A model generated the notes under the pieces. That model ran no database searches, was not told the DNA's origin, and was given only the letters and a program-made list of their open reading frames with translations. This document shows positions 12,684 to 64,000 of a DNA stretch of 64,000 nucleotides, in pieces. Source of the stretch: Hypericibacter terrae (GTDB lineage: Bacteria; Pseudomonadota; Alphaproteobacteria; Dongiales; Dongiaceae); contig NZ_CP042906.1 of assembly GCF_008728855.1 (NCBI RefSeq), positions 620,001 through 684,000 on the forward strand, written 5' to 3'. Every line of letters begins with the position of its first letter. The stretch's first letter is position 1. Both the position numbers and the translations under genes were made by a program.

Positions 12684-14141
12684 ATGCGTCTGGAGGCGAT
12701 CGGGCTCGGCAGCGTCACCGACCTCGTCAGCGGCCATCGCCTGACGGGGGCGGAGCTCTGCGCCGAGGCGCTGCGCCGGGCGGCTCTGCTGGGCGCGTGG
12801 GGCCTGGGGCCGGGCGATGCCACGCTCATCGTCCATGGCGGGACCCCCGATTTCTTCTGCGATCTTTTCGCCGTCTGGCAACGGGGCGCGATCGCGGCCT
12901 GCGCCAATCCGGGCCTCACGCGCGACGAGCTCGCCACCGTCGCGGGGTTCCTCAAACCCAAGGCGATCCTGGCGGCCGAGGGCTTCGCCCATGGCCAAGG
13001 CCTGGCGATTCCCATTCTCGAATTGAAACGCGAGCGAGGGAACACGGAACTCGCATTGCCCGCCGGCCGCTCGGGCGGCGGGCTCGACGATACGGCCTTG
13101 CTGCTCTTCACCTCGGGCACGACCGGCGCGCCCAAGGGCGTCGCGCATAGCTATCGCTCGATCCTGGCGCGCCTCGCGCTCAACCGTGCCCATATCGGTG
13201 CGGCCGATCTCGCGCGCACGCTCTGCGTGCTGCCGACACATTTCGGCCATGGCCTGATCGGCAATTGTCTGACGCCGCTCTTCGCCGGCGGCGACCTCTA
13301 TCTGCATGGGGCGGGCGGCCTCGCCACGGCCGCGGCGCTTCCGCGCCTCATCGACGATCACGCCATCACCTTCATGAGCTCGGTGCCGAGCTTCTGGAAG
13401 ATCGCGCTCAAGGCCGGCAAGGCACCGCGCAGCGGTTCGCTGGCGCGGGTCCATATCGGTTCGGCACCCCTCGGCGCCGACCTCTGGCGCCGGGTGATGG
13501 GCTGGAGCGGCACGGACCGCGTGGTGAACATGTATGGCATCACCGAGACCGCCAACTGGGTCGGCGGCGCCTCGGCGGCGGAGGGCGGGCCCGAGGATGG
13601 CCTCATCGGCCGCCTCTGGGGCGGGCAGGCGGCGATCCTGACGGAAGACGGCCGGCAGGTCGCGCACGGCGAGGGCGAGATCCTGTTGCAGACGCCCAGC
13701 CTCATGCAGGGCTATTGGCAGCGGCCGGACCTGACCAATCCCGTGCTGCGCGAAGGCTGGTTCCATACCGGCGATATCGGCCGGCTCGACGCCTCGGGAT
13801 GCTTGCGCCTGGTCGGACGCCAGAAGGACGAGATCAACCGCGCCGGCATGAAGATCAATCCGGCCGAGATCGATCTCTTCCTCGAGCGTCATCCGCAGGT
13901 GGCCGAAGCCTGCTGTTTCGCCATGGCCGACGACATCTCCGGCGAGGTGGTGGCCGCCGCCGTGCGGACCGTCGATAATGTCGCCCTGGCGCCGGCCGAG
14001 CTGCGGTCATGGTGCCTCGAGCGGATCCGCCGCGAGCTGGTGCCGGAACGCTGGTTCCTGCTGCCGGAGATTCCCAAGACCGACCGTGGCAAGATCAACC
14101 GGACCCATATCCGGATTCACTGCGAAGGACTGAAACGGTGA
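12684..14141 (+). CDS. AMP-dependent acyl/aryl ligase (class I adenylate-forming)
   Basis: A 485-aa ANL-superfamily ligase, shorter than most acyl-CoA synthetases (about 520-650 aa). Core motifs are present: A3 LLFTSGTTGAPKG, A5 MYGITETANW, A7/A8 GWFHTGDIGR and GRQKDEINRAGMKINPAEID, and the A10 catalytic Lys in PKTDRGKINR. It activates a carboxylic acid as acyl-AMP and loads it onto CoA or, given the carrier-protein gene two positions downstream, onto that carrier. ATG 12684 is used because residues before it (from 12627) are low-complexity and not family-like. The next gene overlaps by GTGA. The acid used cannot be predicted. Confidence 0.85.
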   Translation: MRLEAIGLGSVTDLVSGHRLTGAELCAEALRRAALLGAWGLGPGDATLIVHGGTPDFFCDLFAVWQRGAIAACANPGLTRDELATVAGFLKPKAILAAEGFAHGQGLAIPILELKRERGNTELALPAGRSGGGLDDTALLLFTSGTTGAPKGVAHSYRSILARLALNRAHIGAADLARTLCVLPTHFGHGLIGNCLTPLFAGGDLYLHGAGGLATAAALPRLIDDHAITFMSSVPSFWKIALKAGKAPRSGSLARVHIGSAPLGADLWRRVMGWSGTDRVVNMYGITETANWVGGASAAEGGPEDGLIGRLWGGQAAILTEDGRQVAHGEGEILLQTPSLMQGYWQRPDLTNPVLREGWFHTGDIGRLDASGCLRLVGRQKDEINRAGMKINPAEIDLFLERHPQVAEACCFAMADDISGEVVAAAVRTVDNVALAPAELRSWCLERIRRELVPERWFLLPEIPKTDRGKINRTHIRIHCEGLKR

Positions 14142-16914: not shown

Positions 16915-18809
16915 TCAGGACCGGGCGATGACGGTATAGCGCTGCGGCAACGGCTCCAGCGCATCCTTCAATTTCTGGAGGGAATTGGAGTCGGTTGCCT
17001 GGATCTCGACCCGCACGACGGTGTTCAGCTTCTCGTCCCTGGCGACGGCAACGGTGGGGGTGATCGAGGCGCCGAAGATTTGCTCGGCTTCCATCCGCAC
17101 CTTCTCGATGATGGCACGATCTCTCAGGTCGCCCTTGGTGATCTTTCCGACAGCCGTCATCGGCAGGGCATCGATCAGGAAGACGCGCCGGGGCTTCGCC
17201 GGCGGCTCGGCGACATGCGCCTCCAGATGGCGCTGAAGTTCGCCGGCATCGAGCCGGGCGCCCGGCGCCGCCACCGCGAAGAGAACCGGGACCTCGCCCG
17301 CATAGGCGTCCGGCATCCCGACCGCGGCGCTGATCTGAACGCCGGGAAACTCGTTGGCCACGTCCTCGATATCGGCGGGATTGATGTTGTGGCCGCTGCG
17401 GACGATGAGGTCCTTCTCCCGGCCCGTCAGCACCAGCCTCTGATCCGCGGTCAGATAGCCGACATCGCCGGTGATGAGCCAGCCATCCGGGCTCCAGGCG
17501 CCTTGATTATGCTTGGGGTCGAGGTAGCCGGGAAAGACCTGGGGTCCCTTGACCAGCACCAGGCCGCTCGTCAAAGGCGGGCAGGCCGCGCCGCGATGGC
17601 TGGGATCGAGGCTGGCGATCCGTGTCTGGGCGAAGGGCGCCCGGAATCCGACGCTGCCTTGGAGCGGCGTTCCCCGGCCCGGATTGAAGGCGATCGCCGC
17701 CGCCGTCTCGGTCATGCCGTAGGTTTCGAAGAGCCGGATGCCCGTCTGCTCGACGAAGCGTTCGCTCACGGCCTTGGGGCAGACCGCACCGCCCGTCACG
17801 CCCATCCGAACGGAGGAGATGTCGGCGTCCGCGATCGGCGTGTCCGTGAGCGTCGCGATCGAGGTCGGCACGCCGCCGACGATCGTGATGCGGAAGGCCT
17901 CGACGATCCTCCAATAGCTGCGGACCGCCTCCCGGTCCCTCAGGCCGTAAGGAGAGGGAATGACGATATGGCCGCCGGCGGCCAGGACCGAAAGGCCGCT
18001 GGTGATGGTGCCGCCCACATGGAACAGCGGGAACCCGTCGATCACGGCGTCGGTTTCGTCGAAGCCGTGAACCTGGGCGAAGCTCCAGGCCGCGTGGATC
18101 TGGTTGCCATGGGTCAGGCGCACGAGCTTCGGCCGTCCCGTCGTGCCGCCGGTATGGAAGAGCGCGCAGACCGTCTCCCGCGAGGCCCGCGCCTCGAACT
18201 CCAGCGCATCGTCCCGGTGCCGGCTCGCCATCTCGGCAAAGTCGAGCATAGGCCGGACACCGGCTCCCGCCCGGCCCAGCACCACGACATGGCGGAGCGA
18301 GGTCGTCCGCTCGATGACGGTCTGCGCCTTCTGCCAGATCGCCGCATCGGCATCGGGAGGCGTCAGGACCAGGACGGTGGCGTTCTCCGCGGTCAGCAGG
18401 TCGGCGATGACCTCGGCGTTCAGCAGATAGTTGATCGTGCTGGCGACGCCCGCGATCTGGGCGCCGAGGAGGGTCTCCATCATGCCCTCGACGACGGGCC
18501 CGAGGAACGCGACGGTGCCGCCGTCCTTTCCGCCGGTAAGGCCGCGAAAGAGGTTCGCCGCCCGGACGACGCGCCGATGGAGATCCCGATGCGAGAGGGT
18601 CAGCGAGCGGCCGGCATATCCCCCCGCCGGAATCGTGGTGAGGGCGGGGCGGTCGGGATGCAGCGCCGCCGTCGCGCGCAGCAGGTCGAGCAGCGTGCGA
18701 GCCGGGATCAGCTCGTCATAGGGGAGGGCTTCCAGCGCCTCGATATCCGCGATCGAGAGAACATCGCGGGTCGCCCGCGTCGTCTTCGGGGAGTTCGCGC
18801 CCGGCGACA

Positions 18810-53842: not shown

Positions 53843-56140
53843 ATGAGCGGTCTCGCGCAGATTTCGAAGGCGCTTGCCGGCGTCAGGGGGGTGGCGGCGC
53901 GCATCACCGGCCATCTCGCGGGGACTTCCTGGCCGTCGCTGACGTCCGGCGCCTCGCTCTCGCCGGCGTCGGACGGGGCTGCGCGGTTCCGGCATCTTGG
54001 CCTTTTATGGCTCTTCGGTGGCATCGCGCTTGCCCTCGTCACGTTGCTTTGCTTCACGCTGGGCCTCGACGACGCGACGACGGCCTTTGCCTTCCTCATC
54101 GTCATCGTCCTCCTGTCCTTGATGGACAGCTTCGTCTCGTCGGCGATTTTTTCGATCGTCGCGGTCGGCTGTCTGGACTATTTCTTCATTCCACCGGTCT
54201 TCGCCTTCGAAGTATCGGACACGCAGGATCTCACCGTGCTCGCGGCCTTCCTGATCGCGTCGCTGGCCGTGACAAGCCTCGTGCGGCGGTTGCGCCGCCT
54301 GGATGAACTGAAGCGCGAGCAGGCGCAACTCCTCGATCTCACCAGCGACTCGGTCTTCGTCTGCGATATCGAGGACCGGATCGTCTATTGGAATCGCAGC
54401 GCGGCGGAGCTCTATGGGTGGAGCCGCAGCGAGGCCCTCGGCAAGAACGCACAGCAGCTGTTGCAGGCGGTCTATCCCGCTCCCCTCGGCGAGATCATGG
54501 AATCGCTGTCGCGCACCGGACGCTGGGAGGGGGAACTCCGCCACACGACGCGCGATGGGCGAAAGATCATCACCTCCAGCCGCTGGTCCCTGCAGCGGGA
54601 TGCGCGTGGGCGGCCGATCGGCACGCTCGAAACCAACACCGACATCACCGAGCGCAAACGGGCCGAGGATGCGCTGCGGCAGAGCCAGGCGGCCTATCTG
54701 GCCGAAGCCCAGAAGCTCAGCCACACGGGCAGTTTCGGCTGGAGCGTGGCGACGGGGGAGATCCTCTGGTCGGGCGAGAGCTTCCAGATCTTCGAGTACG
54801 AGCCGGTCGCCAAGGTCTCCCTCGACATGGTGATGAACCGTGTCCATCCGGAGGATGCCGAACTCGTGCGTGAGACGATCGAGCGCGCCGCCAGGCACGG
54901 CGAGGATTTCGATTTCGAGCATCGATTGCTGATGCCCGGCGGCGCGGTCAAGCACGTCCACATCGTCGCTCGCGCCGTGACCGACGAATCCGGGGACACC
55001 GAATTCGTCGGAGCGATGATGGATATCACCACGGCGAAGGAGGCGGAAAACAGGGCACAGCTGATCATCGATACCGTCCCGGGCCTGATCTGGCATGCAC
55101 GCCCCGACGGTTCGTTCGACTTCATCAGCCAGCGCTGGCTGGAATTCGCGGGGCAGACGTCGGTCGAGAGACTGAGCGAGGGCTGGAGCGAGCAGATCCA
55201 CCCCGCCGAGATCGAGCAGGTGCGCGCGCGATGGGCGAGGGCGGTCGCTGAGGTCAAGCCCTTCGAGGTCGAAGCTCGGTTCCGGCGGTTCGACGGCGAG
55301 TATCGCTGGCTGCTGGTTCAGGCCCTTCCCCTGCTCGACAGCTCGGGAAACCTTCTGGGCTGGTACGGGAACGACATCGACATCCATGACCGGAAGCAGA
55401 CAGAGGAGGCATTGCGCCAGGCGCAAGGGGAACTCGCCCATGTCAACCGGGTGACCACGATGGGAGAGCTGACCGCCGCCCTGGCCCACGAGATCAATCA
55501 GCCGATCGGCGCCGCCGTCACCAACGCCGAGAGCTGCCTGAGCTGGCTCGCCGGCGACAATCCGAATATCGAGGAGGCGCGCGCCGCTGCCGGCAACATC
55601 GTGAGGGACGGGATGCGCGCCGCCGAGATCATCACTCGGATCCGCCGGCTCTTCAAGAAAGACACCTCGCTGCGCGAACTGGTCGATGTCAACAACGTCA
55701 TCGGCGAGATGATCGGCATCCTGCGAAACGAAGCGATAAGATACGCGATAGCGATCAGGACGGAGCTGGACGCGGATCTCCCTCCAGTCATGGGCGACCG
55801 CGTGCAGCTGCAGCAGGTGGTGATGAACCTGATGCTCAACAGCATCGACGCGATGAAGACCATGGACGGCAGGCGCATCCTCGATATCCGGTCCCGGCGA
55901 ACGGATGAGGATGAAGTCATGATTTCCGTCAGAGATACCGGCGTGGGATTGCCCCCGCAGCCTGCCGAGCGGATCTTCGATGCGTTCTTTACCACCAAGC
56001 CCGACGGCACCGGCATGGGGCTGTCGATCAGCCGCGCCATCATCGCCGCGCATGGGGGCCGCTTGTGGGCGGCCGACAACGCGCCGCGCGGCGCCATATT
56101 TCACCTGACGGTGCCTGTGGAAGCGGATCCTTCAGGATAA
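53843..56140 (+). CDS. Membrane PAS-domain sensor histidine kinase
   Basis: A 765-aa kinase. Residues about 55-150 form four membrane helices of the DUF4118/KdpD type (LLWLFGGIALALVTLLC; LMDSFVSSAIFSIVAVGCLDYFFIPP). Three PAS domains follow (about 165-275, 285-400, 410-525). The HisKA helix carries His549 in LTAALAHEINQPIGAAV, a FixL-like H-box. The ATPase domain has the N box (LMLNSIDAM), RDTGVGLP and FFTTKPDGTGMGLS. The cognate regulators are probably the two FixJ-like proteins encoded next. The signal is unknown; no haem-binding PAS signature is obvious. Confidence 0.9.
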   Translation: MSGLAQISKALAGVRGVAARITGHLAGTSWPSLTSGASLSPASDGAARFRHLGLLWLFGGIALALVTLLCFTLGLDDATTAFAFLIVIVLLSLMDSFVSSAIFSIVAVGCLDYFFIPPVFAFEVSDTQDLTVLAAFLIASLAVTSLVRRLRRLDELKREQAQLLDLTSDSVFVCDIEDRIVYWNRSAAELYGWSRSEALGKNAQQLLQAVYPAPLGEIMESLSRTGRWEGELRHTTRDGRKIITSSRWSLQRDARGRPIGTLETNTDITERKRAEDALRQSQAAYLAEAQKLSHTGSFGWSVATGEILWSGESFQIFEYEPVAKVSLDMVMNRVHPEDAELVRETIERAARHGEDFDFEHRLLMPGGAVKHVHIVARAVTDESGDTEFVGAMMDITTAKEAENRAQLIIDTVPGLIWHARPDGSFDFISQRWLEFAGQTSVERLSEGWSEQIHPAEIEQVRARWARAVAEVKPFEVEARFRRFDGEYRWLLVQALPLLDSSGNLLGWYGNDIDIHDRKQTEEALRQAQGELAHVNRVTTMGELTAALAHEINQPIGAAVTNAESCLSWLAGDNPNIEEARAAAGNIVRDGMRAAEIITRIRRLFKKDTSLRELVDVNNVIGEMIGILRNEAIRYAIAIRTELDADLPPVMGDRVQLQQVVMNLMLNSIDAMKTMDGRRILDIRSRRTDEDEVMISVRDTGVGLPPQPAERIFDAFFTTKPDGTGMGLSISRAIIAAHGGRLWAADNAPRGAIFHLTVPVEADPSG

Positions 56141-56355
56141 GGCTTCGCTCCCGCGCGGTTCATCTTGGTTAACGCTATCGCTGCAGTTGCGAATGGCAGC
56201 GACCTTTGGTCGCGATGGATCGGGGCGACTTACACCAAGGTACAATATCGAGCGCCCTCTCTTTGTCCGATCCTCCCTGGTCAATGTGTCGGGCGCGGGC
56301 CTTTGTGCGGCGCCAGGCCGGGTCTCAGCAGTAGCCGGCACGGGAAGGTTGGATT

Positions 56356-56760
56356 TTGCCGAACAAGCCCTTGATCTCGATTGTCGACGACGATGAATCG
56401 CTTCGCAAAGCAACAAAGGGGTTGATGAGGGCGCTGGGGTTCCTGGCAGAGACCTTCGCGAGTGCCGAGGAGTTTCTGAAGTTCGATCGCCTGCGCAGCA
56501 CGGACTGTCTGATCGCGGATGTGCAGATGCCTGGAATGAGCGGACTGGAGCTGCACCGGCGCCTGGTCGCGACGGGCGAATCCATCCCGACCATCCTCAT
56601 CACCGCCTATCCCGACGACAGCATGAAGGCGCGCGCCCTCGAGGCCGGCGTCATCTGCTATCTCGCCAAGCCCTTCAGCAAGGATCGCCTCCTGGTTTGC
56701 ATCAATTCCGCCCTTGATCGCGATCAAGCGGAAGGGGACAAGCCCGACGATCCGAAATGA
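56356..56760 (+). CDS. Single-domain response regulator (FixJ-type receiver)
   Basis: A 134-aa stand-alone receiver domain. It has the acidic pocket DDD (11-13), phospho-acceptor Asp55 (LIADVQMPGMSG), Thr/Ala in LITAYPD, and Lys in YLAKPFSKD. No output domain, so it would act as a phosphate relay or sink. TTG 56356 is the start, with GGAAGG upstream; no ATG is nearer. It follows the kinase gene after 215 bp and precedes the FixJ-type regulator. Confidence 0.85.
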   Translation: MPNKPLISIVDDDESLRKATKGLMRALGFLAETFASAEEFLKFDRLRSTDCLIADVQMPGMSGLELHRRLVATGESIPTILITAYPDDSMKARALEAGVICYLAKPFSKDRLLVCINSALDRDQAEGDKPDDPK

Positions 56761-56973
56761 CACCGGCGCCAGTTCGCGTGAGGGCACGCGCTGGACCGGG
56801 ACTCGCAAGCTTGCCAGACTGTTGCCAGTTCTTGTTGCGGATGAGGAGCGACGCGCAGCTGTGACAGAGCGAAGGGTGGCTTCGCCCGCTGGCCGGCCGG
56901 GATCGAACGAGAGCCCCGAACCGCCGTTCGAGAGGCTCCCGAACCCGCCAAGGGGACGAGCCGGGAGCGTTGC

Positions 56974-57600
56974 ATGACGGTGCAGCGAGGCGTCGTCTTC
57001 GTCATCGACGACGATGCCGCCACGCGCGAATCCCTTCAGGGTCTCCTTCGCTCGGTCGGCCTGGAGGTGCACGCGTTCAGCTCGGCCCGCGAGTTTCTCG
57101 AGTTCAAGATGACCGATGCGCCCGGCTGTCTCGTCCTCGATGTACGATTGCCCGGCAAGAGCGGGTTGGATCTCCAGCATGAGCTGTCGAGATCGAACAT
57201 CCATCTTCCGATCATTTTCATCACCGGCTACGGCGATATTCCGATGACGGTACGGGCCATGAAGGCAGGCGCCGTCGAGTTCCTGGCCAAACCCTTCCGC
57301 GGTCAGGATCTGCTGGATGCGGTCTGGCTGGCGCTCGAGAAAAGCCGGGCGTGGCGGCAGGATCGGGCGGCTCTCGCCAGCCTTCGGGAATGCTACGAAT
57401 CCCTGACCGCGCGCGAGCGGGAAGTCATGGCCCTCATCGTCACGGGTCGGCTCAACAAGCAGGTTGCCGCCGAGCTCGATGTGGGCGAGGTCACCGTCAA
57501 GGTTCACCGTGGAAACGTCATGCGCAAGATGCGGGTGAGGTCCCTCGCGGAACTGGTGCGTGTCGCAGACAAGCTCGGTCTTTTCGAGCCGAGGTCGTAG
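56974..57600 (+). CDS. FixJ-family response regulator
   Basis: A 208-aa regulator. The receiver domain (1-125) has Asp56 ([14 protein letters not shown]), ITGYGD and [10 protein letters not shown]. The LuxR/GerE helix-turn-helix (about 140-205) has [43 protein letters not shown]. This is the classical FixJ layout. It is expected to receive phosphate from the PAS kinase encoded 0.8 kb upstream. Target genes are not shown by the sequence. Confidence 0.92.
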
Positions 57601-61954: not shown

Positions 61955-62236
61955 TCTGGCAAGCTATCGACCCAGATCAAGATCGGCAGGTCGGCGCAGT
62001 CGAGGCGCTCGATCTCGGCGGCGACCAGGCAGCGGGCGCCCCTTCACACTCCGAGGTCGCACGTCGCCAAGACATCGACGGGCCGCGTAGCAACAAAGCC
62101 ATCCGCGACGGCCATTGACTCAAGTCAATGGCTTGAGAGTGTCTCTGCGATGATACTGTCGGCGGGCTTCGTAAGGATTCCTTTCACCTCGGGGGAATCC
62201 GCAGGGCCCCTAGGCTGTTTTTGAGGAGCCCCTTGC
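61955..62236. other. Intergenic region with a palindrome and a possible gene remnant
   Basis: 282 bp. The part near 61958-62035 reads on the minus strand as protein-like sequence (ARCLVAAEIERLDCADLPIL) but is bounded by a stop and has no start, so it may be a decayed gene end. At 62111-62132 there is a perfect palindrome, GCCATTGACT and AGTCAATGGC around CA, without a T-run. GAGGAG at 62222-62227 serves the next gene. Confidence 0.4.
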
Positions 62237-62782
62237 ATGAGTGTGATCGTCGTGGTGCGAGCGAGCGATGGACGTTCAACCTGGGTCGGCAGTGACACCC
62301 TGATATGCGGTGGCAATCTCAAACAGGATTATGGACCCAAATGGGTTGTCCACGCGCCATGGGCGATAGGCGTGGCGGGGCATTTGAGGACAGTGAACCT
62401 TATCGAGCAGAACATTGAAGGGCTCACGGGAAGCCTGAAGGGCGCCTATGATTTCGCGTTGCGAGCGCGCGAGATCATGAAATCCGACGGCTATCAGGGC
62501 GAGCCGGACGAACGCGGTCCAGTCGCGCTCGGTGGGACGCTCATTCTCGCCAATTCGGCGGGCGCATGGGTGATCGGGGCGGATTTTTCGATCACAACGG
62601 TCTCCCCAGGGACAGCGTGGGCGGAAGGAAGCGGCCGAGAGATTGCGCTGGGCGCCATCCATGCGCTGCAGTCGCTGGAGACCGTCTTCGCTCCGGACGA
62701 CGTTCTCCGGCGTGCGATCGATGCGGCCATGGCGCTCGATATCAACTGCGGCGGCCATCCTTGGATCCACGAGGTCGCCTGA
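62237..62782 (+). CDS. HslV/proteasome-beta-like Ntn-hydrolase with N-terminal Ser
   Basis: A 181-aa protein with the length and motif order of the HslV peptidase. SVIVVVRASDG aligns with the HslV N terminus (TTIVSVRRNG), VGSD20 with its catalytic Asp17 region, YGPK35 with Lys33, AIGVAG with IAGFAG, and AEGSG (Ser132) with the conserved GSG Ser. LGGTLILANSAGAWVIGAD, ALGAIHAL and the late AIDAAMALDINCGG follow proteasome-fold pattern. Methionine removal would expose Ser2 as nucleophile instead of Thr. No HslU ATPase is adjacent. Peptidase or amidase activity is inferred from the fold; function unknown. GAGGAG lies before ATG 62237. Confidence 0.72.
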   Translation: MSVIVVVRASDGRSTWVGSDTLICGGNLKQDYGPKWVVHAPWAIGVAGHLRTVNLIEQNIEGLTGSLKGAYDFALRAREIMKSDGYQGEPDERGPVALGGTLILANSAGAWVIGADFSITTVSPGTAWAEGSGREIALGAIHALQSLETVFAPDDVLRRAIDAAMALDINCGGHPWIHEVA

Positions 62783-62926
62783 GCATGCGACGGCTATTCG
62801 GCCTCGTGCCGTACGCGATGTCCTCCGGTGCCAACGGTGCGATCCATGTTCACGTTGCCCCGTCGATCTGGTGTGGCTATGCCTCGCCGGATGTTGCTCC
62901 AACTTGCGGCACCGGGTATGTGGGCA

Positions 62927-64000
62927 ATGGTCACGAAACCTGCGCAGTCGCGCACCCTTTCAAGAGAGCCGCACCCGATCCCGCGTGAAGCGCCGGGCCG
63001 TCGCGGCGATCTGGTGACGATCTGCGTGGTGGGTGATGTCATGACCGGCCGTGGCATCGATCAAATTCTTCCTCATCCCGGCAACCCCACCCTCTTCGAG
63101 CCCTATGCCGATTGCGCGGGCGACTATGTGGCGCTGGCGGAAGCGGCCCATGGGCCGATCCCGAAGCCGGTGGATTTTGCCTATGTCTGGGGCGATGCGC
63201 GGACCGAGCTGGAGCGGCGGCAGCCGCAGTGCAGGCTGGTCAACCTCGAAACAGCAGTGACGGCGAGCGCCGAGCCCATGCTCAAGGGCATCAACTACAA
63301 GATGAACCCGGCCAACATGCCCGTCCTCAGCGCCGCCGGGATCGAGGTCTGCGCGCTCGCCAACAATCATGTGCTCGATTGGGGAACATCGGGCCTGATC
63401 GACACATTGGAGAACCTGCACGCGGCTGGGATCCGCACGGCCGGCGCCGGACGCAACCGCGAAGAGGCCGGCGCGCCGGCGATTTATCCGATCCCGGGCG
63501 GCGGACGCCTGCTCGTCTTCGCCTTCGGATCGTCGACCAGCGGCATTCCGCGCAATTGGGCGGCGGCCGCAAACCGACCCGGCGTCAATCTGTTGCCCGA
63601 CCTGTCCCCACGAACCTTGAGCGCCGTCGCGAAACAGCTGCGGACGAAGCAGCGACCGGGCGACATCGTGGTGGCGTCGGTCCATTGGGGCGGCAATTGG
63701 GGTTACGAGATTGGAGCTGAGGAGACCGACTTCGCACACGGGCTGGTCGAGGAGGCCGGCGTCGATCTGGTGCATGGCCATTCCTCGCATCACGTGAAGG
63801 CGATCGAGGTCTACCGGGACCGGCTGATCCTCTATGGCTGCGGAGATTTCCTCGACGATTACGAAGGAATTGTGGGCGAGGAAGGCTATCGCGACGATCT
63901 GGTGCTGCTCTATTTCGTGAGCGTCAGGCCCTCTGACGGCGCGCTGGCCGGACTCGCGATGGTGCCCTTCCAAATCCGCAAGTTCCGTCTCAATCGCGCT
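62927..64000 (+). CDS. CapA-family metallophosphatase-like protein, 3' end outside window
   Basis: The open frame runs to the window end (358 codons seen). It has the CapA/PgsA (YwtB) calcineurin-like fold: VTICVVGDVMTGRGIDQIL for first metal ligands, CRLVNLETAVT, VCALANNHVLDWG, DIVVASVHWGGNWGYE and LVHGHSSHHVKAIEVY, with the metal-binding Asp, Asn and His residues of the family. No signal peptide is evident. Family members take part in poly-gamma-glutamate or polysaccharide synthesis; many are uncharacterised. The start may be ATG 62927, ATG 62891 or GTG 63014, the last being the first conserved residue. Follows the HslV-like gene. Confidence 0.8.
   Translation, partial: MVTKPAQSRTLSREPHPIPREAPGRRGDLVTICVVGDVMTGRGIDQILPHPGNPTLFEPYADCAGDYVALAEAAHGPIPKPVDFAYVWGDARTELERRQPQCRLVNLETAVTASAEPMLKGINYKMNPANMPVLSAAGIEVCALANNHVLDWGTSGLIDTLENLHAAGIRTAGAGRNREEAGAPAIYPIPGGGRLLVFAFGSSTSGIPRNWAAAANRPGVNLLPDLSPRTLSAVAKQLRTKQRPGDIVVASVHWGGNWGYEIGAEETDFAHGLVEEAGVDLVHGHSSHHVKAIEVYRDRLILYGCGDFLDDYEGIVGEEGYRDDLVLLYFVSVRPSDGALAGLAMVPFQIRKFRLNRA

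Follow-up and report, generated by a model that had tools for sequence, protein, structure and literature searches.

At the right-hand end of a 64,000-nt stretch of the Hypericibacter terrae genome (the window), one gene encodes a 181-residue protein with the motif order of HslV and with Ser at the position of the Thr nucleophile. Which kind of proteasome relative does this gene encode, and under which condition might the cell use it? No role has been established for BPH or for the homologues described in 2021; BPH has just a loose link to stress (PMC5777263; this and the other papers are cited from partial text), and the sections of the 2021 survey used here give no genomic context pointing to a specific function for its new families (PMC8665760). 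FixK-type boxes and a defined gain-or-loss cassette would point to low oxygen as a condition to test and to CapA and WYL as candidate partners. A family that has both Ser and Thr nucleophiles is also a natural test of the proteasome preference for threonine.

An earlier note, made from the sequence alone, had taken the protein for an ATPase-independent Ser-type Ntn-hydrolase, possibly of an undescribed family, next to a CapA-type gene. As a whole this interpretation is partly supported. Our preferred reading, held with somewhat more confidence than doubt, is that the product would be a self-compartmentalising Ser-type hydrolase that works without an ATPase and is induced when oxygen is low; its catalysis, assembly and regulation are what we infer.

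The gene and its sequence matches

The gene and the features around it are listed in Table 1. The open reading frame, the HslV motif order and the positions of Ser1, Asp19 and Lys34 were all confirmed in the sequence and by alignment with HslV and BPH (with Met counted, the conserved residues are Ser2, Asp20, Lys35, GVAG 45-48 and GSG 131-133). Upstream of the ATG start codon just four further codons are open (a 185-aa open frame, residues GAPC before M), so that a long N-terminal extension is impossible, and the position of the start codon allows a free N-terminal nucleophile. The genome has one copy of the gene. A chance frame is ruled out by near-full-length relatives at 61% (R-7; stretch L002, the same place as L003 in G006), 51% (G068; L034) and 38% identity (G101; L035, 36-38%) and by the match to PHROG 1040. 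This profile, named 'peptidase HslV family', covers residues 1-173 (E 3.3e-12) and matches the six members of the branch described below at 3e-10 to 4e-14; genomes whose HslV is ordinary, E. coli among them, match it too.

Table 1. Features at the right-hand end of the window (window coordinates)
Feature	Position	Strand	Basis or remark
msrA (methionine sulfoxide reductase), left anchor of the segment	61277..61954	+	601 bp match G001 at 84% DNA identity
Left part of the 6,559-bp segment (61955-68513, past the window end)	61955..64000		Missing at this place in G001
FixK/FNR-type palindrome TTGACTCAAGTCAA	62115..62128		First base 122 nt before ATG; consensus from PMC9104804 (partial text)
Shine-Dalgarno-like GAGGAG	62223..62228	+	8 nt between GAGGAG and ATG; read from the sequence
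Proteasome-like Ntn-hydrolase gene, 181 aa, stop codon included	62237..62782	+	Open reading frame, homology, predicted model, alignment
CapA-type (PGA_cap) gene, on to 64111 beyond the window, start uncertain	62828..64000	+	PGA_cap, E 2.9e-76

Pfam and NCBIfam gave zero matches to the protein up to E 10, and this includes PF00227, the Pfam model for the proteasome-like Ntn-hydrolase superfamily. One of the five members of alignment A1 matched PF00227, at 0.0023, and the curated model seems to miss proteins as divergent as this one. The sole PDB sequence match was BPH 5ovu from Cupriavidus (E 0.0034). A profile made from the window protein, three relatives and the phage protein L036 matched BPH 5ovu at 4.3e-12, BPH 5ovs at 1.6e-7 and HslV 1m4y at 1.5e-5. 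PADLOC had no match to the protein, and neither an Rfam element nor a sigma-70-type promoter was found near the gene.

Predicted fold and active site

The AlphaFold2 model, for which eight sequences were used (the window protein, its R-7 relative and six viral-contig relatives), reached a pLDDT of 81.7 and a pTM of 0.79, and the segment 24-32 was the sole run of at least three residues with pLDDT under 50. The predicted model has the four-layer fold of proteasome subunits, as the proteasome/HslV-type Ntn fold proposed earlier would require. In a Foldseek search of the PDB, Thiobacillus BPH 5ovs and HslV 3ty6 came out on top (both E 1.6e-9), with TM values of 0.72 to 5ovs and 0.76 to BPH 5ovu. 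There were 643 PDB fold matches at E <= 0.001, the best 50 of which were BPH, HslV/ClpQ and 20S subunits; the top viral matches included phage proteins named HslV. We regard the proteasome fold and the membership in the superfamily as close to certain.

In an alignment of 50 proteins, Ser1, Asp19, Lys34, Gly47 and the GSG serine of the window protein fall on the active-site residues of HslV and BPH, so that the equivalents of Thr/Ser1, Asp17, Lys33 and Gly47 are found in the expected columns. Position 1 is Ser in the window protein and in the R-7, G068 and G734 members, and Thr in the G101 member and in L122 from a viral contig. Ser or Thr is thus kept in all six but Ser alone is not (four Ser, two Thr), and the invariant Ser2 that the earlier note had asked about does not exist. 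Lys34, the oxyanion Gly47 and the GSG Ser are present in 6/6 members, the catalytic Asp19 in 5/6 (Asn in G734) and Asp167 in 5/6 (Glu in R-7). The frames of R-7, G068, G101, G734 and L122 are open upstream and their N termini were set by alignment; the G068 and G101 members start with GTG, and the assumed genes in G101 and G734 overlap a same-direction neighbour by 4 nt, consistent with the assumed starts.

A serine nucleophile has been published for BPH, one Anbu and CodW, and Ser1 occurs in all BPHs outside Betaproteobacteria (PMC5777263). Two of the 12 BPH-type rows in our alignment (L055 and L121) also have Ser. The serine nucleophile is not new to the proteasome-like superfamily, and the published cases weaken the claim of novelty that the earlier note attached to it; what is new may be the branch and its setting.

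We propose that a Met aminopeptidase would remove Met1 and free Ser1, whose amino group, together with Lys34 and Asp19, would activate the Ser1 hydroxyl for attack on peptide bonds, with Gly47 forming the presumed oxyanion hole. An active Ser1 hydrolase is likely. Because BPH showed no peptidase activity in vitro (PMC5777263), a good active site is no proof of proteolysis, and the protein could have the proteasome fold and still act as a regulatory protein, a ligase-like enzyme, an amidase or a catalytically silent binding protein. The inertness of BPH on standard substrates (PMC5777263) speaks for this, as do connectase, a ligase with the same fold (PMC8665760), and the G734 member without the catalytic Asp. 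We consider a non-protease rather unlikely, as five of the six members retain the full set of nucleophile, Asp, Lys, oxyanion Gly and GSG Ser. A connectase-like insertion would have no room in the predicted model, where strand 42-48 comes directly behind strand 35-39 (the matching to S3/S4 is ours).

Placement among proteasome homologues

The branch comprises proteins from five bacterial genomes and one phage contig; the G734 (L041) and L122 members are the most distant from the window protein, at 24-26% and 24-28% identity. Its members stood together in three trees, with support of 100/96 (5 rows), 96/90 (6 rows) and 95/83 (5 rows), and apart from 11 or 12 BPH-type, 10 HslV and 4 or 5 AAH-like rows; these trees had no Anbu rows, and CPH, RPC and DPH were not knowingly sampled. 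The third tree held 41 of the 50 rows, the nine long rows L041, L107, L111, L112, L109, L108, L005, L008 and L106 having been dropped. In this tree the branch was kept and joined the AAH-like and phage side, and L121 shifted out of BPH. L121 is a Ser-type BPH-like protein of genome G271, which belongs to the same class as the genome of the window.

Could the branch be a divergent part of a published family, either AAH or a Ser-type BPH? The reported hosts of AAH are alpha-proteobacteria, actinobacteria and phages (PMC8665760), and in hhalign a four-member profile lay at similar distances from BPH (1e-16), the phage set (2.6e-17) and AAH-like proteins (3.4e-14), with HslV at a larger distance (4.8e-8). 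The joining of the AAH-like and phage side without the nine long rows points the same way. Against it, none of the three trees mixed the members with BPH, HslV or AAH-like rows. In addition, all 5/5 aligned rows of AAH-like proxies carry Ser in the oxyanion Gly column and Cys in that of the GSG Ser, where the branch has Gly and Ser in 6/6. These proxies are rhizobial, Paraburkholderia and Streptomyces plasmid proteins and L120, and their AAH label is inferred from host range. We therefore doubt that the branch belongs to a published family. With AAH represented by such host-range proxies, the branch appears separate from each group sampled and may be an undescribed family. The 2021 survey described 22 new families of proteasome homologues, with group I being bacterial and phage-borne, and required at least 10 members per cluster (PMC8665760), so that a small branch could have been omitted from its map. 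As a side observation, a differing oxyanion hole is possible in the AAH-like proteins L102-L105 and L120 (genome G360).

The window protein would be a group-I proteasome homologue, on the HslV/BPH side of the superfamily. It resembles BPH (5ovs, 5ovt and 5ovu), which is also of group I and gives the best PDB sequence match and, with HslV, the best fold match; BPH operons likewise have no ATPase partner gene (PMC5777263). It differs from BPH in its separate branch, as it did not cluster with BPH in any of the three trees, and in the loop after helix 70-83, which has 15 residues, four of them acidic (DGYQGEPDERGPVAL). The same loop has 17 residues and is mostly more acidic in 11 of the 12 BPH-type rows, so that the long acidic pore loop of BPH is shorter and less acidic here. 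By blastp the identity to BPH is about 23-28%, with one 44-residue stretch at 40%. BPH is a tetradecameric double ring. By analogy, the window protein would probably form homo-oligomeric rings with the active sites inside and without a dedicated AAA+ partner, and its substrates would be small, unfolded or specific.

The fold, triad and oxyanion glycine are shared with HslV (ClpQ). The window protein has Ser for the catalytic Thr1 and no adjacent HslU, and the best E value against 10 HslV rows, a small set, was 0.099 in blastp. AAH has in common with the branch its group, an overlapping host range and links to phages, and the AAH-like proxies form their own clade with the differing columns given above. 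PPH is linked to the branch by the PHROG 1040 matches and by the phage setting of two members, but it has about 140 residues and no helix H2 (PMC8665760), in contrast to the 181 residues and helix 70-83 of the window protein; two PPH-like rows were compared. The long C-terminal coiled-coil helix of Anbu is absent from the model, which ends in strand 176-180.

Distribution and phage links

The branch is rare in the genome samples. A search of genome contigs with the window protein gave one relative (L002), and single-protein searches matched 2/17 genomes of the order-level sample and 3/385 of the class-level sample. By profile, branch members were found in 3/385 class-level genomes, the other two of the five matches being one AAH-like and one Ser-type BPH-like protein, and in 2/398 phylum-level genomes. 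In total the two phylum-level profile searches matched 144 and 21 genomes. Of the remaining matches a part was examined, which did not cover many of the weak rows, and this part was placed with BPH or HslV on inspection by eye and on similarity. Viral contigs yielded one branch member (L122/L123) and 22 more distant relatives. The phage collection had one match to the window protein and none to the G101 or L122 proteins, and plasmids had no match to the window or G101 protein.

The G734 member (L041 1462-2031, L093 9212-9784, both on the minus strand) carries Asn where the catalytic Asp would be. Its gene lies between those for an FtsJ-type methyltransferase, with which it shares 4 nt, and IMP dehydrogenase. 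It is possibly a weakened member in a housekeeping operon before the IMP dehydrogenase gene.

Another explanation is that the protein came from a phage, where it served in a head, lysis or takeover module, and afterwards either persisted in the bacterial cassette or was domesticated there, with the bacterial Ser members arising from Thr phage ones. Two of the six members, L122 and G101, lie in phage modules and both have Thr: L122 is flanked by a P22-type portal and, judged by eye, a terminase-like large subunit, and G101 comes immediately behind genes for an M15 peptidase and for a GTA-type holin. Other group I relatives were found in phages, PPH and AAH are reported to be spread by phages (PMC8665760), and the G734 member has a phage-type lysozyme gene (by eye; L093 14594-15472) at a distance of about 5 kb. 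Such an origin is improbable in our view, as no phage genes were recognised by eye around the genes of the window, R-7 or G068, where part of the open reading frames was also library-searched, and as the root of the branch is not fixable, so that the trees give no direction of descent.

The terminase-portal interval of L122/L123 is an unusual place for a proteasome homologue. The group I homologue of the Actinomycetia phage DSL-LC01 (L036 4001-4690) adjoins a WhiB-family regulator; in the sections used here, PMC8665760 found no actinobacterial phage with AAH.

The 6,559-bp segment and neighbouring genes

The preferred reading, an ATPase-independent Ser-type hydrolase, also draws on the genomic setting. 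In the genome of the window, msrA is followed by a segment of 6,559 bp and by the right flank from 68514. In G001, of the same genus, msrA ends at 12930 and the counterpart of 68514 follows from 12940 (coordinates of the G001 stretch), so the segment is absent there. The 12.3 kb upstream of msrA in G001 have no match to the corresponding side of our genome, so that msrA is the only left anchor. Absence refers to the matching place beside msrA; for the window gene and CapA the G001 genome was searched as well, and both had no match. The segment encodes the window protein, CapA (PGA_cap), a WYL protein, a CBS-pair protein, an APH-like kinase (match below Pfam's cut-off), PRPP synthetase and DUF2267, and its GC content is 0.624 vs 0.658 and 0.664 in the flanks. 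We propose that the window gene heads an operon-like pair whose second gene is CapA, and that the pair may belong to a stress cassette with a history of lateral acquisition or of differential loss. BPH operons are said to be stress-linked (PMC5777263).

The CapA neighbour named in the earlier note is real and adjacent in this genome, but the adjacency is conserved in no other member. In R-7 a CapA relative (60%) lies about 6 kb from the homologue on the other strand, and both CapA (60%) and WYL (52%) relatives lie within 7 kb; other R-7 neighbours are a ribosome-hibernation-type protein, a nitroreductase, archease and RtcB. CapA was sought and not found in the G068, G101, G734 and phage stretches. 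Genes for nitroreductase, MBL-fold and BON proteins surround the G068 copy, and most neighbour genes differ between the branch members. A search of the open PMC literature on the gene types of the cassette gave nothing relevant. We had considered the WYL neighbour as a sign of phage defence and dropped the idea, the PADLOC WYL/AbiEii matches being weak.

The lack of a partner ATPase held up: no ATPase gene was found among the neighbours read in this genome, and hslV with an adjacent hslU (the latter by eye) lies elsewhere, in L092. The presence of this pair led us to reject the window gene as an HslV replacement. About 8.6 kb from the homologue, the R-7 stretch includes the terminal part of an FtsH-like gene (L116 1-858, recognised by eye), and the wider R-7 island may include an ATPase.

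FixK/FNR-type boxes

Each operon-like end of the segment has a FixK/FNR-type box in front of it; the second box (TTGATCCGGGTCAA, at 68254) lies before the DUF2267 and PRPP genes. Exact boxes, of the pattern TTGAY-N4-RTCAA, number 2 in the 6,559-bp segment vs 1 in 57,387 bp of flanks (at 56714); with one mismatch allowed, the numbers are 8 and 11. The whole window has 2 boxes vs 0.11 expected, a count reached by 2/100 shuffles, and stretch L039 has 2 vs 0.02 expected, reached by 0/200. The motif was chosen after reading the window, so the R-7 result is independent support. There, 19.9 kb contain 6 exact boxes vs 0.04 expected (L116 positions 962, 6369, 7815, 7944, 10828 and 17495), and 0/200 shuffles reach 6. 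The last of these (17495-17508) precedes the CapA ORF, whose start is at 17444, by about 50 nt. We describe the R-7 cluster as a putative dense low-oxygen regulon island.

Among the six members, the exact box upstream of the gene is confined to the genome of the window. The R-7 homologue has an upstream box with a single mismatch; TTGACCTGCCTCAA, 100 nt before its start, fits the FixK2 consensus TTGA/C-N6-T/GCAA, and a table in PMC9104804 gives the identical 14-letter box for ppsA. A FixK box appears also in PMC3050613. One-mismatch boxes lie at 109 nt in G068 and at 89 nt, inside the upstream coding gene, in G734, where 5.4% and 13.8% of random 250-bp stretches, respectively, do as well; across the loci the chance level is 5 to 14%, and 3% for L122. 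The G068 stretch has no exact box, and the G101 and L122 members have no upstream box.

The Bradyrhizobium genes with FixK2-type motifs include nitroreductase, CBS, MBL-fold and stress proteins (PMC9104804), and several neighbours in our genome, R-7 and G068 are of the same kinds. From these sequence patterns, a FixK/FNR-type activator probably switches on the window gene at low oxygen, and we consider such oxygen control plausible, at slightly better than even chance. A wider and more speculative idea, which we hold with clear reservation, is that the branch is a new subfamily, swinging between Ser and Thr and common to phages and alpha-proteobacteria, which in bacteria would lie within a transferable low-oxygen (FixK/FNR) survival cassette and provide an oxygen-controlled proteasome-type chamber. 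In the open PMC literature, judged by title or the start of the abstract, no paper on the branch or on oxygen control of a proteasome homologue was found; the same literature covers BPH, Anbu, connectase and the 2021 survey (PMC8665760), and a paper on Sphingopyxis under anoxia names HslV, proteasome and FNR (PMC6472365).

At 53843-57600 the window also carries genes for a PAS-type histidine kinase and then for two response regulators, of which the second resembles FixJ by eye. This kinase and its regulators might feed the FixK-type boxes nearby.
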